Source of the DNA: Antedon mediterranea
Taxonomy: Eukaryota > Echinodermata > Crinoidea > Comatulida > Antedonidae
Direction of reading: 5' to 3'
Assembly (NCBI RefSeq): GCF_964355755.1
Contig: NC_092680.1
Coordinates: forward strand, 2,085,001 to 2,149,000
Length of the DNA stretch: 64,000 nucleotides
The number at the start of each line of letters is the position of its first letter. Positions within the stretch are counted from its first letter, which is position 1. The position numbers were made by a program, and so were the translations under genes. The notes under the pieces were generated by a model, which saw nothing but the letters and a program-made list of their open reading frames with translations, searched no databases and was not told the DNA's origin. This document shows, piece by piece, positions 3,501 to 51,542 of the stretch.

Positions 3501-3703
3501 TGCCTAAAGTATTACTGTATTAAATTTAAAGTTTCTTTTACCCATGTTCATTTCGACGGCGTGACTATATGCATCAACCGAATTGAGCCTAATAGTTTGT
3601 ATCAATGTGTTTTTCAAGTGAACGTTGCCTTAGAATAATATATATAAGAATTAAACTAATGTCCCGGATGTTTGTGTCTGTTTTATTGCGTTACGTTTTC
3701 ACT

Positions 3704-3716
3704 GTTCAAAGGTCGA
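3704..3716 (+). promoter_or_regulatory. Nuclear-receptor-like half-site upstream of copy B
   Basis: GTTCAAAGGTCGA lies 103 bp before the copy B ATG. The same element recurs at a similar place before copies C and D. It resembles the extended AAAGGTCA / TCAAGGTCA half-sites bound by HNF4, PPAR/RXR or ERR/NR5A receptors, which control many lipid genes. Binding is an inference. Confidence 0.4.
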
Positions 3717-3806
3717 TTTAACCATGGATATATAGGTCGACAAAACAACTACACGTCAGGCTTCTTTTAAATGGATTCATGTTTTGCATGGCTGTGATAC
3801 ACAAAC

Positions 3807-8321: not shown

Positions 8322-8521
8322 CGCTAAATGCGTTTGTAACACCTTCTAACACCACCTTGTAACGCACATTATGTGTACTGGTATTATAGCGTAAACTGTA
8401 ACACATAACATAAGAAGATTCAAAGAACATTCACATTGCATGCACAGATAAGTTTAGCACACGAATTTCAATTTATTAAATGCGAATTCAACATTTTTCA
8501 CAATCGTTTTTTTAGAAAATT

Positions 8522-8640
8522 AAAGCTTGGTTCCCACTAGGATGCAACGCACAGACTGGATATCATTCATCGCATCGTGATTGGTCATAATCTTGCGTTG
8601 CACTACGTCATTGCGTTGCCTCCTAGTAGGACCAAGCTAA
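8522..8640. mobile_element. MITE, GGTTCCCACTAG family
   Basis: Short member with ends AAGCTTGGTTCCCACTAG and CCTAGTAGGACCAAGCT, in the spacer between copies B and C. Confidence 0.7.
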
Positions 8641-8833
8641 GCATCTATATACAAACACTGATATGCCTATAAGTATCATAAACTTTTTATGGACAAACAT
8701 ATGACATAACAATCTTTTTCTCAAAATAATGCTGCCAGAGAATGTATGCTATTTTACTATAACATAATTATAATAATAATCTATAATTACAATACGATTA
8801 AAAATAAAATATTCGTCTAATTAAAGTTTTCAG

Positions 8834-8877
8834 TGCGTAAATAATAATTGGATGGTGGTTGATTTATTTCTGCAAAG
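8834..8877 (+). pseudogene. Relic of FATP exon 1 between copies B and C
   Basis: About 44 bp match the middle of exon 1 of copy C (9446-9490 region) with only two or three differences, encoding the N-N-x-M-V-V-D-L-F-L-Q stretch. Homology stops abruptly on both sides. It has no open coding context and looks like debris from an unequal crossover or a lost extra copy. Confidence 0.7.
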
Positions 8878-9207
8878 CTCAAAGGGTCCCCCAAATAAAT
8901 TGCATTTCATTTGTCAGGAATTTGTATGATTTGTTTTTTATTTTTCAAATGCACCTTGAGCACTCTTGAGTGGTATGTGCGCTATAAAAATCCTGTTATT
9001 ATTATTCTTATTAACTTATGTACGAAAAAATCGCATCCGTGAGTCCGGTTATGCGTCATGCTAACAAGCCAGAATTGTTGTAAATAAAGTAAAAATAAAT
9101 GTAGCTGAGTGTCGTTGTACTAACGATTATTGACCGACATCATACATCATTATGTAAGCAATGCACCCGGATGTGATTTTATCTGTTTTGTTACTTGACC
9201 TTTCATT

Positions 9208-9220
9208 GTTCAAGGGTCGA
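9208..9220 (+). promoter_or_regulatory. Nuclear-receptor-like half-site upstream of copy C
   Basis: GTTCAAGGGTCGA lies 95 bp before the copy C ATG. It differs by one base from the copy B site although the surrounding upstream sequence has drifted. An opposed TGACCTTT lies about 10 bp 5' of it. Confidence 0.4.
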
Positions 9221-9302
9221 GTTAACAGTACATAATCCATAGCTCTACACAGAACAACTCGCAACTGCTTCAAAAGTTGGTGTTGAGTTTTGATAGTGAA
9301 AC

Positions 9303-12300
9303 ATGGATACATCACAGAAAAAGTTGATTGGAATTGGCGGTACAGCAGCCTTAGTCTTGTACCTACAAAGGAAGTATGGCAGTGCTCTTGTGAATGACTA
9401 CCGAACTATACGCCTAGCCCATAAATTTTATACGTTTCAGAAGCATTGCGTAAATAATAATTTGATGGTGGTTGATTTATTTCTACAAAGCGTCGCAAAG
9501 CATCCATATAAACCGTGTATCCTTTTTCATAACGTTATGTATACATACGGAGAAGTTGATATCGAGTCCAACAAAGTTGCCAATTTCGCAAAGAACACCG
9601 AGTTTCTTCAACAAACTGACACAGTGGCATTTATGATGAAGAATGAACCGGCATTTTGTTGGTGGTTTATCGGCATGCGCAAGATAGGAATCACGTGTGC
9701 GTTTATAAACTATAACCTTCGTGGAACGGGACTTTTGCATTGTATCAAGATATCTGGATCAAAAGTTCTGGTGTGCGGTGGTGGTAGGCAAATTTTTACT
9801 TTTTAAAAGAAAGAAAGAATCAACTTCAACTTAAAAAACGATGGGACGGTGGACTGACAGACCACCGAAAATGACTGACTGAGTATTGTTTATTTGTCCC
9901 TTCTACATGTTTCGATATAAACCAAATTAATTGTGTAAAAAATAACAAAAGTTGGTCCAAAACATATATATATATATAATATTTACAGATCTGGATATCA
10001 TTAACGCCGTGGTTGATATTTTACCTGAATTACACCAGCTTGGCATTCGAGTATGGTTAAGAAGAAGCAACGTAGAAGACCTGCCAGCTGGCATTGAGCT
10101 TATTGAGGATAACGTTCAGGATGCGTCAGCATCAGCGATTTCAAAGAGCTGTAGGAATCAAATCACGTTTACTGACCAGTCATATTATGTATTTACTTCT
10201 GGAACCACAGGTATCGATTATTGATTTTATCGATTTATTGGTTTACTTTAAACTCTACGAATAGATTCGGACATGTATTGACAAATTATCTATTATTGAT
10301 AAATGTTTGCATTAGATAATAATAGAATGATTGTTGGAGTACACAATGTAGAGTATAAATAACAGTGTTTCACACATTATATTTTAGGTTTGCCTAAGGC
10401 TTGCAAGAGGACCAACGCAAGTGACGTAAGTGCGTCGATGGCCTTAGCGTTCTTCGGTCTTCGGGAAGATGACGTAGTGTATTCACCTTTACCGTTGTAC
10501 CATGGTGCTACATTTACTCTATGCTTCCTAAACTGTATACGAGCTGGTAAGAGTTAATAAATTTGAATACACCTAAGTCTAGTTATCAAACACATTTTCA
10601 TTGGGCTTTATTACAACGTGGCCAAATGACGTAGGCCTATCTTTAAAGAAGGTTTGTACATTTTTAATTTCAATAAAAGAAAATATATTATACCAATAAT
10701 TATTAAGGAGGGGAGAGGTGACAGGCAAGGGAATGAATGTTAATTTATTCATTTTTGTTGGTCACTGATAGGATGTACTTTTGCGTCAAGGCGTACATTT
10801 TCTGCGAGTCATTTTTGGGAAGATGTCCGCAAACACAACGCTACTGTCATTCAGTACATTGGAGAAACATGTCGTTATCTGCTGGCTCAACCAAAGGTTA
10901 GGTTTATGTCTTCATACATAGAATACATGAAGACATATACGTAGAACCATTCACAACAGTCCAAAATCGGAATTATTCACAGGTCAGATAAAACAATTAT
11001 GTTGCGCTCGTCTGCCTCAGGCCTAAAACATGAGGTTTATTATCGGGTGGTCGAAATTTCACTTACAGTATTGTATTTGTTTCAACAATCTCTGGAGAGA
11101 TTGAACTTAATAATATTGAACTTAAGGAGAAGTCTGGAACAATGAAAATAATTACCAAATGAATTTTGTTATTTTCTTAGAAATCTGATGACGGTGTTTA
11201 TCCGGTAAAAGTTCGTGTGGCTTTTGGAAATGGTCTTCGTCCAGACGTTTGGAAAGAGTTCCAAAACCGGTTTAAAATTGAGAAAATCTGCGAATTTTAT
11301 GGTGCGAGTGAAGGCACTGCATTTTTGCACAATGTTAATGGTAAAGTTGGGGCTATTGGTCGCATCACACCTGTTGTGAAGGTAGGCCTACAGTGACAGA
11401 AGCGGATGTATAATCTTTAATTGTTTTATCCTACTATAATCGAATTTCGATCTAGTTCACACCCAATTAATTCATATCTAAATGTTCTTCATAGAATACC
11501 GTATATTATTGAATATTCATTTATCCATATTCGTTTTAAATCCAAAATATAATTATTTTTGTTTTAAAGTTTCTAGGTGCTCCCCGCGTGATTAAATATG
11601 ACGTCGATACTTCTGAGCCAATCAAAGGGAAGGATGGAAAGTGTATTCCAGTTCATCCAGGTTTGTTCAATCAGCTATTTTTACAAACTAATATCACAAT
11701 ATGTTCCTACAATTTAATGAAAAATACTAATACATAATTTGGTAGGATGTACGTACAACACAATATTATGAGATAGGTCTCTGGTGGTCAGAGTTTTATT
11801 CTCTGATATATTTCGAATTTAAAAGAGACAATGAATTTTTAAATGGTATTTTACGATATGTGATGTGAATGACAGTTATTGATATAAAAAAAAACAAATC
11901 TGATCAATCTTCACCCTCGATATGGTTGGGGAAAGTGTGGGAGTGAATTTACAAATTATAGATATGATCCTGTGGACGCCATGTTGATTTTAGATAGCCT
12001 AATTCACCTTTGCTATACTAAAAACTGTCAATGAACCCGTTTTTTGTTTGTTACAGGTGAAACGGGGTTGCTTGTGTCAATAGCAGACGAAAAACGTCCG
12101 TTTCATGGGTATCTTGATAAGAAAGCGACAGAGAAAAAAATTATGAAAAACGTATTCGTTGACGGAGATACTTACTTCAATACTGGTGATCTTATTAAAA
12201 TTGATGCTGACGGATATGTCTTTTTTATGGATAGAATTGGAGATACATTCAGGTAGACTTTCAGATCATATATACCATAAATTTAAATTTGCAGAAAAGC

Positions 12301-13234
12301 TAAATTACCGTACCATGTAATATAAATATATTAATTACACAAAATTAACGAAATGTAATTAAATATAATGAACATAATAATAATACCTGCAGAGGGGAAG
12401 GAAATAAGTAGACGTTTGTTCATACATTTTGTGGCTTCGACAACCCACTTCTTCCAATGTGCTTTTCTTTTGTCTTGTACCGTTGGCCTACTTGACAAAA
12501 TTAGTCCAAAATAAAATTATACACTTTCGTCTAACAAAAAATTGTTATAGCATTGACTTGTATTTAAATAATTTTAAAAATGTTGGTTTTTTTAAATTTT
12601 AATTTTTTCATACACATTCGATTAATATCAGTGGGTATAGGTTTCTTTTCGCAAAAGTGTAAATTACAAAATATGAATGTTATTCATTGAAATAGATGGA
12701 AAGGGGAGAATGTTGCAACCACAGAAGTTGCTGGGATTCTAGACGAATTTCCAGGTGTTATGGAAGCTAATGTGTATGGTGTGACAATTCCAGGTAGGCC
12801 TAATGTGTTCTATTTGATCGTCATAGTTGGTGAAAAAAGTTGCAATAATGAAGAGTTTTTTAACATCATAACACTTATTTGTAGTCTACAATGATTTGAA
12901 ACATTTCGCATTTTATATTTTAGGCCAAGATGGCAGAGCTGGAATGGCTGCTATAACCCTATCATCAGGCTACAAATCATTGGATTTCAAAGCACTTTAT
13001 ATCTACCTCAAGAATAAGCTACCGTCTTACGCACGCCCGAAATTCATTCGAATTACCAAAAACATGGATTTAACGGGTACATTTAAACACAAGAAGTCGG
13101 ACTTTGTTAAACAGGGATTTGATCCAATGATAATTACAGACGCTCTGTACTATGTTAATAATGAGTCAAAAACATACGATGAATTAAACGCGGAGTCGTA
13201 CGCGTCAGTGGTGAAAATTAGTAGTAAACTGTAA
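9303..13234 (+). CDS. SLC27A-like: FATP/VLACS acyl-CoA synthetase, copy C (complete)
   Basis: Nine exons: 9303-9783, 9989-10210, 10388-10546, 10772-10896, 11181-11381, 11570-11660, 12057-12252, 12696-12793, 12924-13234, giving 627 aa. The order is an N-terminal membrane-like segment, the acyl-adenylate motif T-S-G-T-T-G-L-P-K near residues 230-238, Y-G-A-S-E-G in exon 5, [12 protein letters not shown] then [14 protein letters not shown] in exons 7/8, and T-G-T-F-K-H-K-K near residue 575. These are the SLC27 hallmarks. Exon 9 and the first part of the 3' UTR are almost identical to A and B, so duplication or gene conversion was recent. Exons 3-5 differ more. The C-terminus is K-I-S-S-K-L. A nuclear-receptor-like half-site lies 95 bp upstream of the ATG, as in B and D. 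Confidence 0.93.
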
Positions 13235-14544
13235 CGCTAAATGCGTTTGTAACACCTTCTAACACCACCTTGCAACGCACATTATTTGTATGATGACACT
13301 CGGAAATCAAAGGTGTACCGTATTAGCGTATGCCTGAAGTACTCAACATTATTAATATATAATAAAATTAGTATTGTAAAAGGAGTCGAAAATAGATTAA
13401 AATTGTGATTTATTAAACTCACTTGAAGTGTGTCATGTATCCTGTATATTCCATAATGGTTGTTTTTCTATAACAGTCTATAAACGAATATTATAAACTA
13501 GTAATATAATAATACTGTGCAGTATAAAAGTAATATAGTAATTCTATGACAAACGCTCTATACCTACAGACCATCCATACACTGTCGACTCGACTTGTTC
13601 TGAAATAAACTGTTGAGTTTCTCGAAGTTTCGATCAATATGTAGTCTGGGCTCCAGACGGAGTTTTGTCTTAATATTAGTAAAAATATAAATATTTTTGC
13701 ACATATGGCGTTTCATACGTGTATTACTTGAGTTTGGATACTCCTGTATTTTCAGATAAAAATCGAAATAAAAACTAATTGAAAAAAAGACAATGAATAC
13801 AGACAGTCTAATCAATATGCCTTGATCTTCCTCAGCAGTGTGAGAATGCACAACGTCCAGGAAACTTGGAATATAGCTAAAAACAGTATGTTATTAATAA
13901 AAGTTTATGGTAGCTTGCTTATAATGGCCACACCGTCCAAGAATAAACATAGTTAGCTCAGTCGCCTGAGCGTCGTGTTGACAACACGTATGTCGTGGGG
14001 GATTCCTACGCTGGTCGGTGGAATAGAGTTAAAGGTATGCAACCACTGTGTTTGGGGTTCACAATTATACAATTTTAAAGCTCAGGTACAGTCATGAATT
14101 TTAAATATAATATCTTTAATTGTTAATTGTACATAAATCAAATATTTGTAATAGAAATCAAGACGAAAAAAACAATATATTCTTTAGATTATTATAAAAT
14201 ATATGAAAAAGTAGGTGGGCGTATTAAGCGTTGTAAATGAATTTAATCGAATATATAGATTCTTGTTATTTTATTGGAAATTATTTGTAGGCCTACCATT
14301 GCACTCATTATAAACATTTTGTACTCCTATAATATACACATTATAGATTACTAAGTGTTATAAATATTCTTTTGTATATTTTTACTGTAATTGTAATTAT
14401 AAAACAAACGGAAGTAGTGCGTGTGACGCGCAACCGGATATGCGTGTGCGTGCTATGCGTATAGGAAACGCGTGTGAAAGTGCAGTTTGTTTTAAGCTAC
14501 CCTGGATGATGCATCATGCGGCGCGCGACATCGGCACAATCCTT
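13235..14544. other. Spacer between FATP copies C and D
   Basis: No gene seen. It starts with the copy C 3' UTR, which resembles the copy A 3' region. It then holds a dispersed repeat piece with AGTCTGGGCTCCAGACGGAG (about 13580-13680) and a tRNA-like piece at 13950-14035. A CG-rich stretch with many CGTGTG steps follows near 14410-14540. Confidence 0.6.
13950..14035 (+). repeat. tRNA-like segment (SINE head or tRNA pseudogene)
   Basis: GTTAGCTCAGTCGCCTGAG matches a pol III A box and D-arm. A hairpin GTGTTGACAACAC with GAC in the loop follows, then a poor B box (GGGGATTCCTAC). The acceptor ends do not pair, so it is not an intact tRNA. Confidence 0.4.
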
Positions 14545-15074
14545 GGGCGGATTGCTATAAAACAGTCTTAACTAATGGTCTTAACTCCCCGATTAAAGCC
14601 GGCTTTATCTGATAGACGGTCTTACTAAAGCCACCCCTGTTAGACCATTGCTATAAAACAGTCTTAGATAAGACCGCGTAAAGTAACAAATTGAGGGCGT
14701 ACTTTGCGCGTAGAATACCAAATAAGGTAATGTTCGTCACGCTTGTTCAATTCACAATCATAACAGTACGTACATTTCTACGCAAGAAAATCTATTCTAG
14801 GGCTATATAAGAATAAAATCACCGTTATTATTTGATTTAACACTTAAAACTCGTTCTATTGGTTGTCTTTGACGATAAATAATACGTAAAAGCAACAAAA
14901 AGAGAGGTTTAAGACTGTTTTAAGACTCCTTCGAGTAGGCTTTAATTTTAAAGACCGTTTACAGGTTAGACCGTGGTATAGCAATGGTCTATAATGTAAG
15001 ACTACTTGCTACGTCACGAATTATAGCCGGCTAAGCGCTAAGACCGGCTATAGACCGCTTATAGCAATCCGCCC
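14545..15074. mobile_element. DNA transposon or MITE with 15-bp terminal inverted repeats
   Basis: GGGCGGATTGCTATA at 14545 is repeated inverted as TATAGCAATCCGCCC at 15060-15074. Subterminal motifs (ATTGCTATAAAACAGTCTTA twice, and inverted TAAGACTG, TATAGCAATGGTC) show nested inverted structure. No ORF is kept. It ends about 230 bp before the copy D ATG. Confidence 0.7.
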
Positions 15075-15134
15075 CAGAGACGGGTGGCGTGTGACGTGTA
15101 CGTGTGTAGTGCAGAGATTAGACACGCCCACAAA

Positions 15135-15147
15135 GTTTAAAGGTCAA
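15135..15147 (+). promoter_or_regulatory. Nuclear-receptor-like half-site upstream of copy D
   Basis: GTTTAAAGGTCAA lies 166 bp before the copy D ATG and contains a perfect AAAGGTCA. Copy D is old enough that the flanks do not align well with B or C, so survival of this motif is suggestive. Confidence 0.4.
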
Positions 15148-15300
15148 ACATATGTCTGCTTCGTAAAGTAAAGAGTTTGTTGGGTGTGTTTTCAGTACTC
15201 TGTTGGCCTAGAAACTTTATTATATTACATACGATATTGTAATTTGTTTCAAGTACATTCATTCCTACTTCTCACAGACAATTTATTATTCACTTTACGT

Positions 15301-18300
15301 ATGGCAAACTTCAAAAGAACTGGTTTGTATGCAGGCCTCGGTGGAGCTGCAGCCGCTGGGTTCTACCTTCACCGAAAGTATCGCGATGCGATGGCCAACG
15401 ACATGAAGTTAATACGCTTCGGCTACCGTGCCTACAAATTTCGATCAGGCATGGAGAGCGAAAGAAAGACAGTCGTCGATATTTTCTTGCACCATGTTGC
15501 AAATGATCCTAATAAACACATGATTTTATTTGAAGACTCTGTATATACGTATGCAGAGGCAGAGAAGGAATCGAATAAAATTGGCAATTATTTACGCAGT
15601 ACAAAGGTGCTTCAACAAAAGGATACTGTAGCTCTAATAATGCCTAATGAACCGGCTTTTATCTTTAGTTTCTTTGGTTTGGCAAAGATTGGTATCAATT
15701 GTGCCTTGATTAATTATAATCTTCGCGGAAGGGCTCTGTTACATTGCATTAAAATTAGTGGAGCAAAATCAATCCTTTGCAGTGGTGGTAAGTATTGTAT
15801 AATTAATATTAATATAAAAGATATGAACTGAACTTCTACATAATTGATCTATATTTGTATACATCACTTGTTAATTGTTACCGTCTGGGTAATAAAATAA
15901 TATTTATACAAATAAAGGCATTTTCAAACAAATAATACATCTAAATATTATAATATTAAATCTAAATACCTAGTATTTAGAATGCATATTAAATTAACAA
16001 AAAGAATTGTGGTACTGTGGAAGACCGCATTTTGTTGTGAACGAGCCTCCGTTTTAAAATAAAGATATTATTATTATTATTATTGACTGGATGTACACTA
16101 CAGCACTTTCTGTAGTTTTTAGCTTTTATAGGAACATCTAAGTACTGTACCACTATATTATGTAAATATAAAAATCTTAATCATATTATATTATCTTGTT
16201 GTCAGCTGGCGAACTTGTTGAAGCGTTAGTAGAAATTTTACCAGAGCTTCAACAGATCGGAATTGTTGTGTGGGTGCTGAGAAGTGGAGAAGAAATGCCA
16301 GCAGGGATAACTGGAATAGCAGATCACATCCAAAGAGCATCTGATGCCCCCATACCATACGAGTGTCGAAACACAATTACACATGAAGATAATGCTATCT
16401 ACATCTACACATCTGGAACTACAGGTTCGATTGTAATTGCACTCATTTTAATATGTCTAATTTACATCTTAAGCTTTGTCTACACTATCAAACTTTATGT
16501 GAGTGACAAACAAATCTGATGTGCCCATATATATATGTGTGGACACAATGATGTCAGATCACTACCATATTTGGGCATATCACTACCATATTTGGGCACA
16601 TCAAATCTTATATTGTCTTCTATTTATGAAAAAAAAAGATTTTAAATGATAATCTATTCCATTTTATTTTTGATTTGTTAAGGTCTGCCAAAAGCCTGTA
16701 AAGTGAGTCATGGAAGACAACTGTCAACTGCCTTTGTTCTTGATGTTTATGGTATGAGCTCGGATGATATCGTGTATGCCCCTTTGCCACTCTACCACAG
16801 TTCAGGATTTGTCCTCGGATTCTTGAATATAATGAGAGTTGGTTAGTACAGTGCTCACTATTTTATATGTTTTCAACCTCAATTAGCTTTATATAAAGTA
16901 AATATAGTTTAGATATAAAATATAAGCATAAACACCTTCATAATAATGTCACTTATTACTATTAGGAAAAAGTACACATATCTTCATGTCATTGTTCTTT
17001 CTGTTCATTAAACAATTATAATCTTTCGGGTGTCTTTACGTTCAATGGTCCAGATCTTAGATTATTGCTTAATTCGATCCTATCTTGATGTAACCCTGCT
17101 TACTGAATAGTCTTTTCCCTAACTCATGTGTATTTAAAGATATAAAGAGTATAGTGATGGGATATGCAGTCGGCTAGTGACTTATATGTTTTAGGAGTAT
17201 AGTCCAGATAAGAATTACATTGCATATTCGTTTTACTCCACAGGCGGTACGCTTGCCCTCAGTCGTAAGTTTTCAAACTCGCATTTTTGGGACGATGTAA
17301 GACGATATCGCTGTACTGTTATTCAATATATTGGAGAGACATGCCGCTATTTGTTAGCCCAACCACGAGTAAGTCAGGTTTTTTGGGATTTTTTTTAGAG
17401 TAGTGAATAACTTTATTAAAACTGCACAATGGCCTATTTAAAGTCTGATTTTATTAATCTTCATTTTTCATGTTTTTGGTTGACAACATCTTTAACTTAT
17501 TTATTTTTTTGGTTATAATCACAGAGGCACGATGATGGAAAGTATGCCCATAAACTGCGTCTAGCGATAGGCAACGGCCTGAGACCAGATATTTGGGAAG
17601 AGTTCCAAAGCCGATTCAACATCAAACAAATTGGAGAAATATGGGGTGCAACTGAGGGCAATACGATGTTTTTTAATATTGATGGTAAAGTTGGTGCTGT
17701 AGGAAGATACACACCATTACTTAAGGTAAATTACATAATTAATTAAATATAATAGTAATAATAAGGTGACACCCTTAGGAGCCCGACAAAGTGTAAAGCT
17801 CTGTCTACACTATCAAACTTGATGTGACAAATGCTTGTGATGTGCCCATATATGGACATGATGATGTAATAATAGTAAAATATTTAAGCATATCACTACC
17901 ATATTTGAGGAAATCACTACCATATTTGGGCACATCACACTTGTTTTGTCAAAGTAGTTTTATAGTGTAGACAGAGCGTTACCCTAATAGTTGTTGGTCA
18001 TAGTGTTAAAGAATATTATATACTCTTTTTCATTTTTACAGGAAAGCGTCCTCTTAATGGTATCAATATATTCTACTTCTACTATATATAGTAAAGTTAA
18101 CAATACAAGTATTGAGAAATAAATAGTTACAGAAATTAATAACTTATTTATTATTTGTAGTTTCTTAGTAGAGGAATTCACATACTCAAATATGACGTAG
18201 ATGGGGCTGAACCAATCAGAGACAAGAACGGAAGATGTATCCCTGTACTTCCAGGTATTATATGCAGTGTAGTATTATGACCATTGTTAAATCCCTGCTG

Positions 18301-19797
18301 TGTGTTTGTGTTTATGCCATTTAGATCACAATATATGTTAAACAAAGCCTTGTCACCATATCATATCAGGGGCCTCTGTGTTATGCTACTACTGAATAGT
18401 AATCTTCTCTTAAAGGTGAGATGGGTCTGATGGTGATTAAAATCAATCCACCACTAAATGCATATGAGGGTTATGTTGGTAAGGCAGCAACCCTGAAGAA
18501 GATACTGCACAGTGTATTTAAAGAGGGGGATATGTACTTCAACTCTGGTGACTTGATTAAAATAGACAAAGAAGGTTATGTGTACTTCATGGACAGGTTA
18601 GGAGATACATTCAGGTACGATTAACTCGCATTTGTTTATTTTGAATTGAAATATTGTTTTTATACTTGGAGACCTCTTCAATCAAAGACTGGTCTCCCAG
18701 AGGGCCCAACTATGATCAGTTGCTGTGTGTATCCTAGTAAACCGGGGTTACCCCCTACTAATACACCGGGGTAACCCCCTACTAATACACCGGGGTAACC
18801 CCCTACTAATACACCGGGGTAACCCCCTACTCATCTTGAAAGATGTACTAGGTTCTTTAAAGTGCACATAAGCTAAATGTGTACACTGGACCTACGGTTT
18901 ATAGTCCTTATCCGAGAAGACTTGTTCTACCATCAGAACCATGAAGCAAGTGAGCCTCATAAAATTTATTAGAAATTCTACAAGAATTGACTGCCTTTTA
19001 CACACACAACTGTTTTTTCATGACTCACAATATAAATTTTCTTCATCCAAAATTATATAACCATATGTTTTAATCATGTTTCATTTAGATGGAAAGGAGA
19101 GAATGTTGCTACGACAGAAGTAGCAGAAACCCTTAATGATTTTCCAGGCATTTTGGAGGCAAATGTGTATGGAGTGAAAGTACCAGGTAATGTGTTTAAT
19201 TTGATTTTATATTGGATGATATTTTATTCATCAAGATTATAAATCTCTTTTTTTTTTAATGTCTCAACCGTGAATATCAGTTAAGCCGCTGATCTGGATT
19301 GGAAGGGTTGCCCTCTTTAAAGATGGTTTAGGACAGTGCACAGTACAAGGCTTACCAAACATCAATATTTTGTCGGTAAACAACTTAACATCCCTCCCAA
19401 TGGACGAGGCAATTGAAATAAATTTTGACTCTCAAAGCCTGACTGTAAGAAATGTTATGTTATTTTCGTTTTTTTTTATATTACAGGACGTGATGGACGA
19501 GCTGGAATGGCTGCCCTCACCCTACAAGACAATGTCGATGAGTTAGACTTCAAAAAGCTATACGCATTCGTTACCACCAAACTACCATCCTATGCCTGTC
19601 CAAAGTTTCTACGAATTATGACCACCATGCATATTACTGGCACATTTAAACATCAAAAGGGTAGCCTGGTCAAGGATGGATTTGACCCCAGCTTAGTGCT
19701 TGACCCTTTGTACATGATTGACCCATCGTCAAAGACCTATGTCGCACTCAATTCAAGAAACTACACTTCCCAATTACAGCTATCAAGTAAACTGTAA
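15301..19797 (+). CDS. SLC27A-like: FATP/VLACS acyl-CoA synthetase, copy D (diverged paralogue)
   Basis: Nine exons: 15301-15787, 16206-16424, 16683-16841, 17244-17368, 17525-17725, 18161-18254, 18416-18614, 19089-19186, 19487-19797, giving 630 aa. Intron positions and phases equal those of A-C, but the protein is clearly diverged (start [10 protein letters not shown]). The domains are an N-terminal hydrophobic segment, [34 protein letters not shown] and T-G-T-F-K-H-Q-K. The C-terminus is again S-S-K-L. Conserved catalytic positions are all standard here, unlike copy B. The exon 2 donor (G|GTTCGA) is weak but required by the frame. An in-frame upstream ATG exists at 15184. The 15301 start is preferred because it aligns with the starts of B and C. 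Confidence 0.92.
16471..16608. mobile_element. MITE, TCTACACTATCAAACT family
   Basis: Left end AAGCTTTGTCTACAC, then the core with two ACTACCATATTTGGGCA boxes. The right inverted end is missing. It lies in intron 2 of copy D, close to the splice donor. Confidence 0.7.
17795..17982. mobile_element. MITE, TCTACACTATCAAACT family
   Basis: Ends AGCTCTGTCTACACTAT and ATAGTGTAGACAGAGC, flanked by TAA and TTA. It lies in intron 5 of copy D. Confidence 0.8.
18741..18831. repeat. 24-bp tandem repeat with palindromic core
   Basis: Four units of about 24 bp, consensus CGGGGTAACCCCCTACTAAT with ACAC. Each holds the palindrome GGGGTAACCCC. It lies in intron 7 of copy D. Confidence 0.85.
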
Positions 19798-24832: not shown

Positions 24833-25427
24833 TACGGTACTCTTGTTGAATAAGATCATTGTACACAGGGTTTGATAAACATCAACAATACGCCAACAAA
24901 GGCGGAATTCAGGGTATAGGAAGGTTACATGTACTTGATTTTTTACAAACAATTCCTTGTTTAAAACAAAATTAAACTATTGTTCAAAACTAATAATGGA
25001 AATAGTCGGAAACTTTCATGGTCAATATAAAAGTTGATAATGATTGTATTTTGATATATAAGATAATAAAATACCTACATTTGTAAATGAACACAGTATC
25101 TACTGTATATTTCTGTCGGGGTCAAGTAATTTTTTATCATCTCTATTTCCTCTAATACAAATAGCTTGATGCGAACAGATATTGTGTTCTACTAGATCGC
25201 CACCGCCGCATTAATATTAATTGTGTCGTAACCGATTGTACTTGGCCTTTGAACAATTGGTATTATATATTGAATACTGGTAAAATATTTGAGAAGGTAC
25301 AAAAAATCCTATCAATAATATATTATATTCTGCGGATATATCGGTATCGTAGATTAGGCCCACTCCTTGTATAATACTGCTCTATTTTATAAACCTTTCA
25401 CGAAGACACATTACACTTTCAACGCGC

Positions 25428-25600
25428 GTTTAAACACTGTTGGTAGGTACTGTATTGCACGCGCGCGTTCAAACACTGCTGGTAGGTACTGTATTGCACT
25501 TGCGCGTTCAAACACTGTTGGTAGGTACTGTATGGCACGCGCGCGTTCAAACACTGTTGGTAGTTACTGTACTGCACACGCGCGTTCAAATACTGGAGCT
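25428..25600. repeat. 39-bp minisatellite upstream of the Ig gene
   Basis: GTTCAAACACTG-type units start at 25428, 25467, 25506, 25545 and 25584, exactly 39 bp apart, with a short extra start at 25607. Units contain GCGCGCGTTC. The period is 13 codons, so two + strand frames stay open across it. It lies about 120 bp before the coding start of the Ig gene and could be in its 5' UTR or promoter. Confidence 0.85.
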
Positions 25601-25719
25601 ATGTGCGTTCAAACACAGATGGATAAGCTGCTTTTTATTATATTATTATTCACTTTTATCTTGTAGATTCGACAAATTATCTGAAGTTGGAATAGAAGTA
25701 CTGTCGATATTCCGAAACA

Positions 25720-28700
25720 ATGGTGCTGCTTAAGTTGATGACACTTCTATCGACACTCCACTGCCTCTATGCGCAATCGGACTTCACAAGTTCTCCATTT
25801 GACGTTGTTTCTCTCATAGGCGGCAATGCGACTTTACAATGTTCGGTCGGTAATTTCATGTCAGGAGATCTGTTACAGTGGTACAAGGATGGTAGTAATG
25901 AATACATATCGGAAGGGTTAACAATTTTATCGAATTTTGACCAACGTGCGTATATTGAAGGAGGGATAACAGCTTACGCCGCCGGACAATATAATATAAT
26001 TATTACGAATTTACAAGCTAGCGATACTGATCAATACAGATGTACGTATGATAAAGTAGGTACTTCAGATGTTCCTGTTGGTACAACATCAGCCACTTTG
26101 ACCGTACTTCACCAGCCAACGTGTTCACAGAGTATAGCTTCACCTGAAATTGGTCAACAAGTGAACTTAATTTGTGCGCTGGATACCAGAGACGTGAACA
26201 GTGATGTTGTAACGCAAGTTCAGTGGAAATACAAATCTGACATTATTTCTTATAATGCAATAACAACCAGCACTCGAAGAACTCTTTCTGGAGAAAATAA
26301 CCACGAGGAATTTGTATGCGAGATTGTGGTAACAGAACATCCCAATGTTATCCGTTCTTGTTCTCTTGTGCCATTGTCTATCGACCCGACAGCTACTGTT
26401 ACTCCTTCTGGCACTTATTCAATCACAAAAGGCCAGACCATGGAGTTCCAATGCTCACCTATTGCTTATCCTCACATAGCAAGTATTGACTGGCTTATTA
26501 ATGCACGATCAATTTATGATTATGATAGTATCTTTGAGTTTGAATTGAGCACAGATAGAATATCGTTTAGTGTAACGGTTATCACAGACGGAGGCGTAAG
26601 TGCACTTGCATATATGATATACTGTCGTGTTTACGATCCAAAGGGACACACCGCCGAAAGTTTGACTAGCACGGTTATCGTTGAACCATTTGTAATGATT
26701 CCGACTACACGTCCTTCAACAACAACTATACGTTCTCCAACAACAGAAGAAATTCTGGTATCTTTTGTAAAATTACCTTCTAGTGTTGTGGCTACTCCAG
26801 GCTCTGTGATTGTGCTAGATTGTGCTGTCAACTACCTTAATGGTGGCGTGATGCAGTGGTTTAATGTGCAGGAAAGCGTGTATATCCTTGTGGGTCTTGA
26901 CGTTACATCACCATCAGACGATATAAAAAATCGGTACTCGATTATAGGTGGTATAGACGCCTATAATAATGGACAGTACTCACTGCAAATTACAAATGCT
27001 AAAGAAATCGACAGTGGACGTTACTTTTGTACATATGTTTATCCCGAAGGAAGAAGCTCATTCTCGTCTGATTATGCTGACATAGATATTCTTTCGCCGC
27101 CTGTCATCAATCCAACAACAACAACAAATAATGTGCCTACTTACGTTTCTTTACCACCAACAATTAGGCCTACGACACTTTTAGTTCCGGTTACTTTCGT
27201 ACAAATGCCATCAGACATTGATACAACTGCCGGATCAACAATAATATTAACATGTACAGTGAATTATCTTGGAAGTGGTGAAATGAAATGGTTTAAAGTC
27301 CAAGATGGTCGTTACATAATGGTCGGTCTTCATGTTAGCATTTCTGCATCTGAAGATGTTCAGAATCGATACTCTATACTTGGAGGTAGCGACGCTTACA
27401 GTAGAGGACAGTACGATTTACAAATCGTGAATGTTAAAGACACGGACAAGGGTACATACTTTTGTTCACACTCTACGCCTGGTTCGACATCGATCTCGTC
27501 CACTTACGCTACATTGACTTTACTTGCAGCATTGGTATGCCAACAAACTCCAAACCATGCCTTGCCATCGGGTGCATTGGTAACAATGCAATGTCTCGTT
27601 GATGATGACAATGAGCAAACATTTATCACGTGGTATGACGACCTTGGCATCGAACTGACCATCGCGGCTGCGAACAGCGTCACTTATTCGCTAGTCTTAC
27701 AACCGACTGACAACTTCAGAAGCTTCACGTGTTCAGTTACAAATGCAGGCGCTGACAGCTTTGCCAGAACATGTAGCCTTACACCACTTGCCATCACACC
27801 TGTTGTTAAAATAATTGAGGATAATGCAGAGGCAAAGGGCGGAATGCCAGTTAATTTTACGTGTCAGGCTGAAGCCGAACCATACGTATCCAGATATGAA
27901 TGGTTGATTAGCGGTCGGGAGCTCAATGCATTGAATGAAACGTTTGAATATGATGATATTGACATAGGGGTATTAGAACTGGTGCCAATTTTTAACGGAG
28001 AGGTTGATACTTTCTATAATATTACTTGTACAGTATACATACCGTCTGGTCATAGCACAACGTCAGAAGGCGTTCTATTATTAGTTACTGACAGAGGTTT
28101 CACCAGTATGGCGAGCACAGATGATTATGAGTTAACGGTTGTTGCAGTGGTTGTGCTCAGTCTGCTAGGAACAATTGTCGGCATAGTCCTTATACTATTG
28201 TGCTATGTTCTACTCCGTCATGGAAGACGGCGGAAATTATCACTTGCTCGTAAAATCAGTTTCAACCATCGATCGATCAGTGGTGGACGCTATGGTCAAA
28301 GACATCCATCGGTAGATGTTTACCACATCGACGGCTACGGTTCCACTGCTAATGATGCTATATACGCATCTCCTCTGAAAATTAGAAATGAAAAGAAACA
28401 AGCAAAAATCAATAAAAAGACCGCAAATACGTCACGTGAATCAATCTATGAAAACTCAAGTGAAAATCAACGTATAAATAGCATATCCAGTGAATATATG
28501 AACTATACCCACGATGCAGACCCTGTTCAACCAGTAGGCTTTCCAAATTATGGATATAGCCCAGAGTCCCCGACTAGTTTACGGTTTAGCATTGCAACTC
28601 TTCCAATTAAACCTACCGTAGCATCTAAACCAGAAACAAAACGGCTCTCTTCATTCGAGCCCCTCCCAGACGTATGTAACGATTCTCTTTCTCCCGCGGT

Positions 28701-28866
28701 TATTGCAGCCTTTCAAAATGTAAAACCTCAAGGCAGTGTACAAATAGAGCCAGATGAATTAATTTATTCGAATGAACCGGTTATTACGACGGCATCGAAC
28801 AATATTTACGATGATTTTGATTCAGATTCTTTTGATTCAGACTCGGAAGATGAAACACATATGTAA
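25720..28866 (+). CDS. Intronless seven-Ig-domain membrane receptor, KIRREL/nephrin-like
   Basis: Single open frame of 1048 aa. M-V-L-L-K-L-M-T-L-L-S-T-L is a signal peptide. Ig-like domains lie at about 18-130 (V type), 132-228, 229-322, 344-460 (V), 488-600 (V), 602-690 and 693-790, each with paired Cys and most with the core Trp. Domains 1, 4 and 5 carry F-x-x-x-P-x-D/S, W-F/Y-K and G-Q-Y, as in irre/kirre-type recognition molecules. Thr/Pro-rich linkers follow domains 3 and 4. A membrane segment lies at about 806-832, followed by R-H-G-R-R-R-K. The tail of about 215 aa has Tyr motifs Y-E-N, Y-M-N and Y-S-N and ends in an Asp/Ser run. Likely a cell-surface adhesion or recognition protein. 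Domain exons are usually separate in this class, so the lack of introns suggests a retrocopy origin. A possible acceptor (CTTGTAG at 25660-25666) would put a non-coding exon upstream. Confidence 0.85.
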   Translation: MVLLKLMTLLSTLHCLYAQSDFTSSPFDVVSLIGGNATLQCSVGNFMSGDLLQWYKDGSNEYISEGLTILSNFDQRAYIEGGITAYAAGQYNIIITNLQASDTDQYRCTYDKVGTSDVPVGTTSATLTVLHQPTCSQSIASPEIGQQVNLICALDTRDVNSDVVTQVQWKYKSDIISYNAITTSTRRTLSGENNHEEFVCEIVVTEHPNVIRSCSLVPLSIDPTATVTPSGTYSITKGQTMEFQCSPIAYPHIASIDWLINARSIYDYDSIFEFELSTDRISFSVTVITDGGVSALAYMIYCRVYDPKGHTAESLTSTVIVEPFVMIPTTRPSTTTIRSPTTEEILVSFVKLPSSVVATPGSVIVLDCAVNYLNGGVMQWFNVQESVYILVGLDVTSPSDDIKNRYSIIGGIDAYNNGQYSLQITNAKEIDSGRYFCTYVYPEGRSSFSSDYADIDILSPPVINPTTTTNNVPTYVSLPPTIRPTTLLVPVTFVQMPSDIDTTAGSTIILTCTVNYLGSGEMKWFKVQDGRYIMVGLHVSISASEDVQNRYSILGGSDAYSRGQYDLQIVNVKDTDKGTYFCSHSTPGSTSISSTYATLTLLAALVCQQTPNHALPSGALVTMQCLVDDDNEQTFITWYDDLGIELTIAAANSVTYSLVLQPTDNFRSFTCSVTNAGADSFARTCSLTPLAITPVVKIIEDNAEAKGGMPVNFTCQAEAEPYVSRYEWLISGRELNALNETFEYDDIDIGVLELVPIFNGEVDTFYNITCTVYIPSGHSTTSEGVLLLVTDRGFTSMASTDDYELTVVAVVVLSLLGTIVGIVLILLCYVLLRHGRRRKLSLARKISFNHRSISGGRYGQRHPSVDVYHIDGYGSTANDAIYASPLKIRNEKKQAKINKKTANTSRESIYENSSENQRINSISSEYMNYTHDADPVQPVGFPNYGYSPESPTSLRFSIATLPIKPTVASKPETKRLSSFEPLPDVCNDSLSPAVIAAFQNVKPQGSVQIEPDELIYSNEPVITTASNNIYDDFDSDSFDSDSEDETHM

Positions 28867-45105: not shown

Positions 45106-48100
45106 ATGATTCATGTTACGGTCCCAAGCTTCAAACAAATTTCTGAGGAGGATGAAAAGCCGTATACAGTAAGTATAATGGTTAGACTAGCTAGGCCTAG
45201 TCTCTAGTTGACTGCCTGGCAGGGGACTGCGATTTGTTCAGTGTAACTGTGATTGACGATCATGCTTGAAACAGATAATAAAGTGGGCCTAGCTAGTCTA
45301 ACTAAATGTGTCACGATTTGATGAATCATATCCGTATTGTTCATATAGTTTGTTGCTGTCGTTTGTCTTTTCATAATAGTTTTAAACGTATATTAATTAT
45401 TATTATTAATTAATAATTATATTTAATTGTTTAGTAGATTTTAGAAAGAAATCATAGCCTAAAATTAAATATAATAATATTTAATAATAATTAATAGCCA
45501 TGCAATGCGTGAACAAAATATTTTCTCCCTGTTCTGTAGGTATATCAAATTAATGTACTAGTGGGTGGTAGAACACACTTTATTGAGAAACGGTATCGAG
45601 AGTTCCATGCACTTCATAAACAGGTAAAAGATCAATTATAAATGTATTATATTTATATATTTATTTTTTCAATTGTAAAAAATGAAGATTATAGTGTAAA
45701 CATAATTTAGTTTTTTATTTAATATTTTAAATTTTTTTAATTATTTATCATTAAATAGTATGACATTTTATCATATCTTCATCAATTATTGCCTCTTTTA
45801 AAAACACTGGGCAATAATTTGTGTTTTTTTATTATTTAGCTAAAGAAAACTATTGAAACACCAGAATTTCCACCAAAGAAAGTGCGACAGCTATCAAACA
45901 AGGGTCTAGAACAAAGAAGAACATTGTTAGAAGGTTATATACAGGTAATTCAATAGAAACAAGGGTCTAGAACAAAGAAGAACATTGTTAGAAGGTTATA
46001 TACAGGTAATTCAATAGAAACAAGGGTCTAGAACAAAGAAGAACATTGTTAGAAGGTACAGGTAATTCAATAGAAACAAGGGTCTAAAACAAAGAAGAAC
46101 ACTGTTAGAAGGTACAGGTAATTCAATAGAAACAAGGGTCTAGAACAAAGAAGAACATTGTTAGAAGGTACAGGTAATTCAATAGAAACAAGGGTCTAAA
46201 ACAAAGAAGAACATTGTTAGAAGGTACAGGTAATTCAATAGAAACAAGGGTCTAAAACAAAGAAGAACATTGTTAGAAGGTACAGGTAATTCAATAGAAA
46301 CAAGGGTCTAGAACAAAGAAGAACACTGTTAGAAGGTACAGGTAATTCAATAGAAACAAGGGTCTAGAACAAAGAAGAAGACTGTTAGAAGGTACAGGTA
46401 ATTCAATAGAAACAAGGGTCTAGAACAAAGAAGAACACTGTTAGAAGGTACAGGTAATTCAATAGAAACAAGGGTCTAGAACAAAGAAGAACATTGTTAG
46501 AAGGTACAGGTAATTCAATAGAAACAAGGGTCTAAAACAAAGAAGAACATTGTTAGAAGGTACAGGTAATTCAACAGAAACAAGGGTCTAGAACAAAGAA
46601 GAACACTGTTAGAAGGTACAGGTAATTCAATAGATACAAGGGTCTAGAACAAAGAAGAACACTGTTAGAAGGTACAGGTAATTCAATAGAAACAAGGGTC
46701 TAAAACAAAGAAGAACATTGTTAGAAGGTACAGGTAATTCAATAGAAACAAGGGTCTAGAACAAAGAAGAACACTGTTAGAAGGTACAGGTAATTCAATA
46801 GAAACAAGGGTCTAGAACAAAGAAGAACACTGTTAGAAGGTACAGGTAATTCAATAGATCAGCCTTCCGCAAACTTTTTATTTTGCGGCCTAAAATTCGG
46901 TACCAAACCGCGGCCCAAATACCCAACTGGACCGACGTAATAAAATAGTCTGCCTCAAATTTGCCGTCACAATAGATAATATGCTGACCCAGACTTTCTT
47001 AAATGTTCTTATACTCATAATTTATTAACTGATATTTAGAAAATAGAATGAAATTTAAATAACCATATGCAGTGCAAGGATGTAAGTGTAACGCAATTTG
47101 ACCAATCACAAGCAATGTATAATTCAACTCACTTGCATTGCGCTTACGTCCTTGTGTTACGTTCTAGTGGGAACCAAGCTTTACACAATAACCATGCTTT
47201 TATTCAACAAAATATAATTTAACCTTATTTATTATGCTGAAACTTTTTATTTTTTAAATGTTGTTGTTCATTTTATTTCAGGGTATTTTGGACAGAGATT
47301 TAGTCCCTAGGTCTTTACTAACATTTTTACGAGTCAAGAATTTTAAAACAGCGAGTTATGAGTAAGTTCATTTATTCTAGTTATTTTAGTTTTACATTTT
47401 AATAATTAAATTAGCCTCTACTGATAGTTCTGTAATCATTGTTAAAAAAGGTGTGAATTCTTCCAATTTTTTTTTTGATATGAAATAAAAAAAAACATCC
47501 AGACAATTGTTTGTTTTCACTGAATGCAAAAAAGGCTTGGCATAACCATTGCTTAATATAAACACAGTGATGCCTAAACTTAATTAATAGGACCCTTTAG
47601 GCAAAAATATTTTCCTAGCTCCCTGTATTGTTTGGCCAAGTTTTTAAATGTCTCCTCATATTTCCTCTGTATTACTTACTATACTGATAATTTTTCAGCA
47701 TTTTTTTCATGAAAAATATTCTAATATTATTTAAAATATGCTTACTTTTTTGCAGCGCTGCTCCTAGGATGGTTTGGTAAGGACCTGTGTAGTAATTTAA
47801 TGTTTAGATTTGCGTTCTGTTTGTGTTTAGCTATGATTGTTGTGCTTTCAAACAACAAATTATGTTGGGGCTTAACTTTTGTTGCTAATATGATTTAAAG
47901 TCAGACTTATGATGAAAAACATTGTCACAATTGGCATCCCACACAATCAATTGGGACTACTTTACCGTTAATTTTCTGAGTTTATAATCAGCTTGCGTTA
48001 ATTACGATTTACTAATCAAATGAAAAAGGTACTTTTATTTGAACGCAGAGATTCTACAATTTACTGTTCAAATAAAAAAATATTTCTGTTGAGCTCAAAG

Positions 48101-51100
48101 GTTTCGAAATTTGATTAAAAAGCCATAAAAAATAACCAAACAAAAAGAAAAAGAAAAAATGTCTATTGCTATAACATTTTCTGGAGTCTGATTGTAATTC
48201 ATTTTAAGTTTTTTTTTATTGTTTTAGTTAAAAATATATTCACACCTTCGTACCAGCACTTTAGATGGATGCTCACTTGGCAACTCTTCACAAATAGATT
48301 TAGTCATGTTCACATGCATAAGAGTTAAGAGTATTTAAGGTACATCCAATGTAACTTTAACTCCAATGGGTTTTAGAACAACTCTGAGAATAACTTCAAG
48401 TTTGCCTTATTTGTTTTGTTAGAGAAAAGAGTGTTTAAACATAGCTTATAATATTATATAGCTCTGTTCCACAACATCTATATTTAGTCCACGACCCTGA
48501 TTCTTGTTCACACATGTTATTAGTATATGTATTATCTTGTCATAGAATACCTGAATGGCACTGCATGTAAAGCTCTGTCCACACTATCAAACTATATGTG
48601 ACCAACAAATTTGATTTGATTGTCATATTACTACCATATTTGGGCACCTCACACTTTTTTGTCAAACTATTTTTATAGTGTAGACAGAGCTTAAAAGAGA
48701 GTGTACGATATAGTTGCACATAGAAAATAATCACTGAGTAGTTGAAATATTTTTTCAGGCTAACAACTGGGTATAAATGTTATTTCTGTTATAAGAAATG
48801 CATTTAATTTTAAGTAAAGTGCATGCTTACTGGGTCTGTTTAATTTTTGATTGGACGTGCAAATAAAGACATAGAATTTAACCATTACCTGTAGATATGG
48901 CACTAATCATTGGGATGTAATTTAATCTAATTTCTAATATTGATTATATATAATTTTGTTTTTTAACTTACCATTTTTTTTTAAATTTTTACTTTTTATA
49001 GAAAAGTTTAGAAAAAATTTGTTTTGGTCACTTACTGAATTGCATTCATTCTCTAAATACAAAACCTATATATATTATTATTACTAAATTATGTAATTAT
49101 AAGTAATTTCTATAACTGCATGTTCTTTCTATGTTTTCAGATGTTTACTGTAAAATTTACATTTTGTAATGTTTTGTATTGTTTTTGTTGAATATTTTCT
49201 CTAAATTATCCAAACTTCAGTAAAAATTGTTAAAAATACTGTATAGAAAAAATAATATAGAAAAGCAAATTTCTATTTACCAAACAAATCCTATCACTGA
49301 AATTGTTCAAATGCTTTCTTTGTCCACTACAGCAGTGTTGAATAAAAGAATTAAAACTCAACACATAATTTCTAATACTTATAAGTTATAGTCCTCATTC
49401 TTAGTTAATGGCACTTTATAGTGTTGCTGCAGACACAGGATTTGAACCTATGAACATGGGTTTGTTGACCCAAAACCAAAGAACCTTCTAAATTGTGGGA
49501 TGATGTGTTTTATTGGTTCAGGAAATTAGACATCACTATTAGATTAAATTATATAGACATATGTTTTGGTATTTTTGAATATAAATAATATTCAACTTTT
49601 GTTAATATGATTTTACTTCTGCTAAGAGATATATATATAAATGCAAGATTAATGAAATTCCTCTTAACTTCATTCACTTTAAAAGATGGGTACTCTTTAC
49701 AGAAACTGTGGAGAATAATATCGCAAAAAAATAAAAATAAGTATAATGTCCATATTAAAAAATGGGAACCATTATTAGAAAGAGATAACGACAATTGAAT
49801 GAAATACACCCACAAGCAACTGAAATAATTCATTGTAACGCCTTAGTAAATTTGACAATTTATTTCTCTTAAATTGTTTTGGTGAATTATGGATATGGGG
49901 GAAAGGATTTGACTTTGTAAACCAAATCAAGGTATAGGAGTTGATAATGGTTTAATCAAATATAATAATGTGACGTCCTCACACGTCTTTGATTTTCTTT
50001 CTTCTTCTTTTCTGATCTTTTTAATGTTGATTGGAGTTTAATTTATAGGATGCCTTACGAATGTACTCTTGACACTAAAACACAGTACCTGCAATTCAGA
50101 TTTATACATATAATTCTTCCCACAAATAAGTTACTGCACAACATTGGCCTGCTTCAAGATGATAAATATTCTATTTGCAGTAAGAAAAAAGAAACAGTAG
50201 AACATCTAATGTGGTCTTGCGAGAAAAATTCTAAATTGTGGGACGATGTGTTTTATTGGTTCAGGAAATTAGACATCCCTTTTAAAATAAATTACATAGA
50301 CATATGCTTTGGTATTTTTGAATACAAATTTACAATTTTTATTAACATGTTTTTTACTTCCTGCTAAGAGATATATATATAAATGCAAGATTCATAAAAG
50401 TCCTCTTAACTTCAATCACGTTAAGGACTGGGTACTTTTTACAGAAACTGTGGAGAATAATATTGCAAAAAATAGAAATAAGTATAATATCCATATCAAA
50501 AAATGTATTGTAAACCAAATCAAGGAATAAGAGTTGAAAATGCAAAACTTGGTAATCATTATTGACAAGATGTTATTATAGCCTGGTTTAACCTAAGAAA
50601 TGATTATGATGAGGTATTTGTGGTATATCAAACATTGAAAGAGATAATTAAAAAAGAGAATGACGATTGAGATAATGTGACGTCCTCAAACGTCTTTGGT
50701 TTTCCTTTTTGTTTCGTTCTGTTAAGTGTAATGTTTTTGATAAAAGGAAAAAAAATAAAAGTTTTTGAAAAAAAACCAAAAAAAACCAAAGAACCATTTT
50801 GATCTTTAGAAATCAAAATGCCTACCACATATTCTGTTAAAGGTAAATTTGTTTAAAAATACTATTTTCGTGATAGCAATAAAACCTCATTACATTTCCT
50901 TTATTGTCTTTTTATTTTTCAGTTCTCTAGATGACATCGACCAGGAACCAATGTGAGTATTATACAAAAAGATTTTTAATCAATTTTTTTGATGACCTTA
51001 AAAACTGACCAAAAATATTTTATATGATAAGAAAAGTAATTCTTATTTTTCAATATTATATTTTAAGCCTTTTTAAAATAGAATATTCATATGTATGTTT

Positions 51101-51542
51101 TATAATATTAGTATTAGTATCATTTTTATTTTTGTCTGTCCATCCTATAAGTCTGTTGGCTTGGAAAATAAATAAATAAAATAATATTTTAATTGGCAAT
51201 ATCACTAAAGCTTTGTCTACACTATCAAACTTTATGTGACAAACAAAATGTGATGTGCCCATATATGGACATGATGATGTCATATCACCACTATATTTGG
51301 GCATATCACTACCATTATTGTGGTACATCATAGTGTAGACAGAGCCTAAGAGTTCCCAAATACTAAAAACATATTCATGGACAAGATATTCTTATATTTG
51401 TAGATCTACTCATCAGCCTACTATGGTGTTTGAGACGGACCCGTTCCTAAGCTTAGTGATGGAAGCTGAACTACATGATTCTGTAGTAGAAGGTGTCAGA
51501 CAGGGTCTATATGAAGACGACTTTAATCTACCCCTAACTTGA
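45106..51542 (+). CDS. SNX24-like: PX-domain sorting nexin, SNX22/SNX24 type
   Basis: Six exons: 45106-45168, 45540-45623, 45840-45944, 47282-47361, 50923-50952, 51404-51542, joined to 166 aa (human SNX24 about 169). The PX domain fills about residues 1-110. G-G-R-T-H-F-I-E-K-R-Y-R-E-F-H-A-L-H holds the R-Y-x-E-F phosphoinositide-binding motif, and P-P-K-K plus R-R-T-L-L-E-G-Y-I-Q follow. The tail has H-Q-P-T-M-V-F-E-T-D-P-F and V-V-E-G-V-R-Q-G-L-Y, matching the SNX22/24 C-terminus. It is expected to bind PI3P or related lipids on endosomes. Exon 3 and its donor seed a long minisatellite. A possible 21-nt in-frame microexon lies at 47756-47776. Confidence 0.9.
45899..46860. repeat. 17-unit minisatellite copied from an exon end and its splice donor
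   Basis: Seventeen units beginning CAAGGGTCTA: the first two are 61 bp, the rest 56 bp (5-bp deletion GGTTATATACAG to GGTACAG). The first unit overlaps the last 46 bases of SNX exon 3 and runs through the donor CAG|GTAATTC into the intron. Later units differ by A/G in TCTARAAC and T/C in AACAYTG. No higher-order phase is evident. Confidence 0.95.
47060..47185. mobile_element. MITE, GGTTCCCACTAG family
   Basis: Core GACCAATCACAAGCAATG with right end CTAGTGGGAACCAAGC. The left end is decayed. It lies in SNX intron 3. Confidence 0.65.
47756..47776 (+). other. Candidate 21-nt microexon of the SNX gene
   Basis: CTTACTTTTTTTGCAG precedes and GTAAGG follows a 21-base segment. Read in the frame left by exon 4 it encodes D-A-A-P-R-M-V-C with no stop and keeps the downstream frame. 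Confidence 0.4.
48567..48695. mobile_element. MITE, TCTACACTATCAAACT family
   Basis: Complete copy with TAA on both sides: TAA-AGCTCTGTCCACAC ... GTGTAGACAGAGCT-TAA. It lies in SNX intron 4. Confidence 0.85.
49480..50040 (+). mobile_element. LINE 3' fragment (L1/Tx1-like), copy 1
   Basis: Broken by stops, it matches copy 2 from W-D-D-V-F-Y-W-F-R-K-L-D-I onward and shares the 3' sequence AATGTGACGTCCTCACACG. Confidence 0.7.
50041..50770 (+). mobile_element. LINE 3' fragment (L1/Tx1-like), copy 2
   Basis: An open piece encodes F-I-H-I-I-L-P-T-N-K-L-L-H then C-S-K-K-K-E-T-V-E-H-L-M-W-S-C, the zinc-binding tail found after the reverse transcriptase of L1/Tx1-like LINEs, then W-D-D-V-F-Y-W-F. 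The rest is frameshifted. It ends with GTGACGTCCTCAAACGTC and an A-rich tail. Both copies lie in SNX intron 4 and are dead. Confidence 0.8.
51205..51349. mobile_element. MITE, TCTACACTATCAAACT family
   Basis: TAA-AGCTTTGTCTACAC ... GTGTAGACAGAGCC-TAA. It lies in SNX intron 5, about 55 bp before the last exon. Confidence 0.82.

Follow-up and report, generated by a model that had tools for sequence, protein, structure and literature searches.

When tandem repeats that lie at or near splice sites are considered, the closest described systems are the mirages of amphioxus, a name given to minisatellite-like duplications of exon-intron boundaries (PMC3087553). They have been reported in Adh3 (Canestro et al. 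2002 NAR 30:2871, as cited in PMC3087553), in the globin genes BflGb6 and BflGb9 (PMC3087553), and in the troponin C and PGBD5 genes (PMC3902484). Regular splicing is reported to be undisturbed by these arrays (PMC3087553, PMC3902484), the BflGb6 mirage shows length polymorphism, with 6 versus 3 units (PMC3087553), and somatic instability is reported for the Adh3 mirage (PMC3087553, PMC3902484). Mirages have been described as peculiar to amphioxus, and it has been proposed that they could supply material for new introns; the relevant papers found by our literature search for mirages and minisatellites concern amphioxus alone. Other repeats can be set beside them. For instance, the minisatellite of human IFI6 (6-16, G1P3) contains multiple donors, two downstream repeat units being used to give isoforms (Turri et al. 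1995 NAR 23:1854, as cited in PMC4526556). In TERT intron 6, the repeat number of VNTR6-1 affects isoform choice and nonsense-mediated decay (NMD) (PMC11830802). Finally, internal tandem repeats at the exon-intron boundaries of human paralogues can alter splicing and form new introns (PMC2812944).

The array described here lies in a window of 64,000 nucleotides (the whole stretch analysed; GC about 34%) of the crinoid Antedon mediterranea, whose genome consists of about 11 large sequences. It occupies an exon-intron boundary of an SNX22/24 gene with the following features, in window coordinates.

45106-45168, + strand: SNX22/24 coding exon 1, with the start codon at 45106
45540-45623, + strand: coding exon 2
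45840-45944, + strand: coding exon 3, whose 3' end, at the true donor CAG|GTAATTC (45944/45945), falls within array unit 1
45898-45958, + strand: array unit 1, 61 nt, with the exon end and the true donor
45954-45956, + strand: in-frame TAG, reached by all decoy-extended forms of exon 3 and by intron retention
45959-46019, + strand: array unit 2, 61 nt, with the first decoy donor after 46005
46020-46859, + strand: array units 3-17, 15 x 56 nt, with a common 5-nt deletion
after 46061, 46117 and so on to 46845, + strand: decoy donors of units 3-17
after 46055 and so on to 46839, + strand: weak AAG|GTACAG sites of units 3-17
46860-46969, + strand: transposon-like insert of 110 bp, directly 3' of the array
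47282-47361, + strand: coding exon 4
50923-50952, + strand: coding exon 5, 30 nt
51404-51542, + strand: coding exon 6, including the stop codon

The six coding exons join into an intact open reading frame of 166 amino acids (aa), but only if donor 1 is used. The encoded protein contains a PX domain (PF00787, E 2.3e-13, 50.9 bits against a cut-off of 21.6), its top PDB matches are human SNX24 (4az9, E 2.4e-28) and SNX22 (2ett, E 6.2e-25), and the SNX22/24 alignment runs through the exon 3/exon 4 junction, YIQ|GIL. Judged from these matches, the gene is an intact SNX22/24 orthologue with six exons, and since the alignment with human SNX22 and SNX24 crosses that junction, unit 1 holds the true exon end. 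When split by hand at ACAAGGGTCTA, the array (45898-46859) comprises 17 units, two of 61 nt followed by 15 of 56 nt, and in the phase chosen by TRF it runs from 45896 to 46858 (period 56, 17.0 copies, 97% matches, score 1724). By hand count, CAGGTAATTC occurs 17 times in the array and AAGGTACAG 15 times, the latter restricted to units 3-17. The splice signal is carried by every copy, CAG|GTAATTC being invariant in 17 of 17 units, and the real exon-intron boundary is spanned by unit 1, in which the final 47 nt of exon 3 are followed by the first bases of intron 3.

Units 1 and 2 do not differ at any of their 61 positions, which is consistent with a recent duplication. The 61-nt form is the ancestral one, since it encodes GYIQ|GIL, in agreement with YIQGIL of human SNX22, and a unit of 56 nt would cause a frameshift. 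In units 3-17, which vary among themselves at about five positions, a loss of five bases turns GGTTATATACAG into GGTACAG, and it is this deletion that creates AAG|GTACAG as a second donor-like site. An earlier note on this DNA had proposed that a minisatellite multiplies an SNX splice donor 17 times, with the true exon in unit 1 and 16 decoy donors in the intron, and the unit split and the intact 166-aa frame agree with it on these points; the array that it had placed at 45899-46860 is present, with its limits corrected to 45898-46859. The second possible donor, AAG|GTACAG, which it had assigned to the later units, is indeed found in units 3-17, but it is weak in comparison with CAG|GTAATTC, with a U1 duplex of -6.2 against -8.1 kcal/mol and a position weight matrix (PWM) score of 0.25 against 4.59 bits, the PWM values being approximate and based on human frequencies.

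The array is far above chance and occurs once in the 354-Mb genome, and this uniqueness rules out a mobile family. The insert that follows it is flanked by the 8-bp repeats CAATAGAT (46852-46859 and 46970-46977), has relatives on C1 and C7 and, to judge from its start, CAGnnTTCCGCAAAC, appears to be hAT-like. An inverted-repeat element at 47074-47183 has very many copies in the genome, and at C1:40739291-40742968 a 67-bp tandem array is built from a portion of it. Intron 3 is 1337 nt long, and would be about 316 nt long without array and insert; intron 2 measures 216 nt.

Like the amphioxus mirages, the SNX array spans an exon-intron boundary and multiplies a splice signal, with the edge unit as the real boundary, the unit size is similar and the gene is intact. 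Unlike them, it is found in a crinoid echinoderm and has 17 very similar units; it is described here from one genome assembly, and normal splicing, length polymorphism and somatic instability are reports from amphioxus. A crinoid host, outside the cephalochordates, is a matter of range and not of definition, and by its sequence the array is a donor-side mirage minisatellite, a known kind in a new animal group. The other systems are less similar in particular respects. The repeat donors of IFI6, as cited in PMC4526556, yield isoforms, whereas the SNX decoys all stop after three extra codons, so that the predicted frame ends at 87 aa and no productive isoform is expected from downstream donors. 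TERT VNTR6-1 also consists of intronic tandem repeats, but these are not copies of a splice site, are separated by about 3.5 kb from the affected exon, which lies downstream, and exert their effect by way of a proposed G-quadruplex (PMC11830802). The repeats of human paralogues are likewise boundary minisatellites, but they belong to recent segmental duplicates and average about four 30-bp units (PMC2812944).

As mirages are known from cephalochordates, an origin of the DNA in that group was considered, and it is ruled out by crinoid neuropeptide markers. GLRFHKGAPF, the end of an L-type SALMFamide described from three feather stars (PMC9793003), occurs once in the genome in the frame ...RGLRFHKGAPFGKR..., the peptide GLRFHKGAPFGKR lying at C5:24566751. 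In addition, a calcitonin-precursor primer of 22 bases from Antedon mediterranea (PMC9793003) matches at C7:21173412 with 19/19 exonic bases; its sole mismatch is among the three bases that precede an acceptor-like site, and a signal-peptide exon follows.

With regard to splicing, the true donor and the decoys are equal in U1 duplex energy and PWM score (the values given above for CAG|GTAATTC), each forms 7 contiguous U1 pairs, and the motif ranks among the best 0.7% of the GT sites that the SNX gene has outside the array. Because the scores are equal, the choice between donor 1 and a decoy cannot rest on the 9-mer; donors 1 and 2 have the whole unit in common. Use of the first decoy would add 61 bases to exon 3, as the first two units measure 61 nt, and every further decoy 56 more, which amends the 56n+ bases of the earlier note for the first step and retains it for the later ones. 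Exon 3, which is 105 nt long with the true donor, would reach 166-1006 nt with decoys, and intron 3 would drop to 436 nt with the last of them. Since the intron part of unit 1 reads GTA ATT CAA TAG, decoys and intron retention alike would end the frame at 87 aa (YIQVIQ, then stop); the same TAG is hit by 16/16 decoys, three codons on, and donor 1 alone keeps the frame. According to the usual exon-junction rule, a stop far upstream of the last junction marks a transcript for NMD, and with the premature stop 159-999 nt upstream of that junction for donors 2 to 17, the decoy transcripts are predicted NMD targets. Both the encounter with the in-frame TAG of the first repeat and the outcome in truncated proteins or NMD targets had been anticipated in the earlier note, and the prediction holds for all 16 decoys. 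Array units acting as pseudo-exons with their own acceptors are ruled out by the lack of a pyrimidine tract before any AG of the array (at most 42% pyrimidine, against 58-84% at true acceptors), and the idea that RNA folding masks or exposes donors was rejected, the array fold not being unusual (z -0.61).

Position may count against donor 1 as well as for it. When a donor is present in identical copies and introns are short, the intron-proximal copy can be the one that is used, and both intron 2 and the 436-nt intron left by the last decoy are short enough to permit intron definition; furthermore, every unit contains a purine-rich AAGAAGA stretch, which could act as an enhancer of decoys. The intron-proximal decoys might thus win in part, with a fixed loss of transcripts amounting to a genetic load and no regulation. 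We consider such constitutive mis-splicing quite unlikely, as normal splicing is reported for amphioxus mirages (PMC3087553, PMC3902484), the SNX frame is intact and arrays are tolerated in DHX8 (see below). Nevertheless, the intron-proximal rule and the purine-rich stretches are the main doubt about the reading that we prefer, in which the array is nearly silent. The 17 donors, lying upstream of intronic AATAAA signals (the first at 46939), might also be seen as a platform that recruits many U1 snRNPs and shields the intron from premature polyadenylation (telescripting); however, AATAAA is frequent in this AT-rich gene with no sign that any copy is used, and this role seems extremely improbable.

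The SNX array has counterparts elsewhere in the genome. A pattern search for three near copies of CAGGTAAGT at minisatellite-like spacing gave seven arrays, five of which start at a coding exon end in sense orientation. These five, a sixth from the same search and one further array are listed here.

L038 (G000:C1:17771500-17781400), 4728-5573: DHX8 donor array, 37 nt x about 22
L044 (G000:C9:43300-53200): donor array of an ABCC-type transporter, 58 nt
L041 (G000:C4:35196300-35206200): mitoguardin donor array, 55 nt
L042 and L043 (G000:C6:30475900-30485800 and 30499000-30508900): donor arrays of SRCR paralogues, 53 nt, about 30 and 17 units
L039 (G000:C1:40898200-40908100), 4360-5477: array of 31 nt x 36 with consensus donors antisense, in an intron of a titin-like Ig/FN3 gene
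L052 (G000:C7:29502000-29508000), 3897-4493, reverse strand: array of 37 nt x 16 carrying AAG|GTAAGT, downstream of a TATA-like promoter and upstream of the first coding exon of a secreted protein

In DHX8, which encodes a spliceosomal helicase, the decoys are mostly CAG|GTAAGT or TAG|GTAAGT, about 21 of them of consensus or near-consensus strength, and when unit 1 is joined to the exon that follows, the resulting 102 aa show a gapless alignment with human DHX8 that spans the junction (E 6.7e-58). The ABCC exon join aligns with ABCC transporters through the junction, with Pfam support for ABC_membrane, and one unit of its array reads CAG|TTAAGT, a lost donor. For mitoguardin, the Pfam score is slightly below the cut-off (24.4 against 25 bits). 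Pfam also supports SRCR in the two neighbouring paralogues, whose arrays sit at the same signal-peptide-like exon, an exon that by its position appears to belong with the SRCR exons; they are a natural pair for the comparison of unit numbers. The seventh array of the search has no gene nearby. A second donor word, AAGGTAAGT, gave five further arrays, none of them at a recognised coding exon end; one may lie at the end of a 5' UTR exon, and one is a microsatellite-like run. The array upstream of the secreted protein is perhaps a mirage at the end of a 5' UTR exon. In all five further genes the decoy-extended exon reaches an early in-frame stop, as chance intron sequence would.

These arrays bear on whether unit number could act as a regulatory dial, as the earlier note had suggested in proposing that copy number could tune SNX output; decoys would compete with donor 1 for U1 and the spliceosome, and more units would mean more decoy use, more NMD and less SNX protein. 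In the 9-mer, at least, the decoys do not differ from the true donor, nor does donor 2 in the whole unit, and every one of the decoys leads to a premature termination codon; every one of these codons is the same TAG. Moreover, intronic VNTR length can alter splicing and NMD, as in TERT VNTR6-1 (PMC11830802), and repeat donors are used in IFI6 (as cited in PMC4526556). Even so, regulation of this kind finds no support here and seems unlikely, since amphioxus mirages are reported to leave splicing normal (PMC3087553, PMC3902484), chance alone would be expected to place stops in intron-derived sequence, a clear enrichment of arrays at donors is not seen, and similar arrays occur in unrelated genes, DHX8 with its many strong decoys being hard to square with strong competition. 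A crinoid-wide layer of length-dependent unproductive splicing, with tens of donors in many genes and unit number setting the loss to NMD, is very unlikely.

Enrichment at donors was estimated by comparing CAGGTAAGT, with 3315 occurrences in the genome, with the reversed word, which has 2032 and gave three arrays. When the excess of the donor word, minus array copies, is taken as real donors (about 1170), 5 arrays fall to these and 5 to the other words, of which there are about 4060 (p 0.05). This amounts to at most a weak enrichment, with no depletion, and preferential seeding at donors is not accepted as shown; extrapolated to all introns, and as a rough figure only, some hundreds of mirages might be present in the genome. 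The decoy donor sites of the SNX array are changed in 0/135 positions, against 16/705 elsewhere in the 15 units, a weak sign of constraint, because only about five unit columns vary at all. Pooled over six arrays, divergence is 1.4% at donors and 3.6% elsewhere (p 0.005). Selective retention of decoy donors is not accepted, as three intact donor words had been the very basis for choosing five of the six arrays, and the sites share descent.

Overall, we consider it likely that the SNX array is a nearly silent by-product of minisatellite turnover, with donor 1 chosen by position and decoy errors cleared by NMD; it is probably a tolerated by-product of repeat growth and not a dial. A tandem duplication would have been seeded over the exon 3/intron 3 boundary and have grown to 17 units; units 3-17 go back to a copy from which the 5 nt had been lost. 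Donor 1 would be preferred by position and not by sequence, as the exon that ends there is short (105 nt) and has a pyrimidine-rich acceptor in front of it, and as this donor is the first to be transcribed; any leakage to decoys would give a single truncated frame of 87 aa, removed by NMD. Its place on the intron side of a working donor would be the reason why the array is tolerated. Its main cost is likely to be mutational, since exchange between unit 1 and units 3-17 could bring the 5-nt deletion into the coding exon. The intact genes, the tolerance of an array in DHX8 and the RNA reports from amphioxus all argue for this silent reading. The presence of several mirages in a crinoid suggests that they are a general consequence of minisatellite-rich genomes. 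They also offer a natural test of how a single 5' splice site is selected by the spliceosome when many identical ones are present: position is the sole difference between SNX donors 1 and 2, and in DHX8 one true donor faces about 21 near-consensus decoys.

Elsewhere in the window, four similar tandem genes at 2589-19797 are candidates, by eye, for FATP-like proteins (long-chain fatty acid transport/acyl-CoA synthetase). An intronless open frame of 1056 aa at 25696-28866, with Ig-like domains and a transmembrane stretch, is preceded by a 39-bp minisatellite at 25423-25595.
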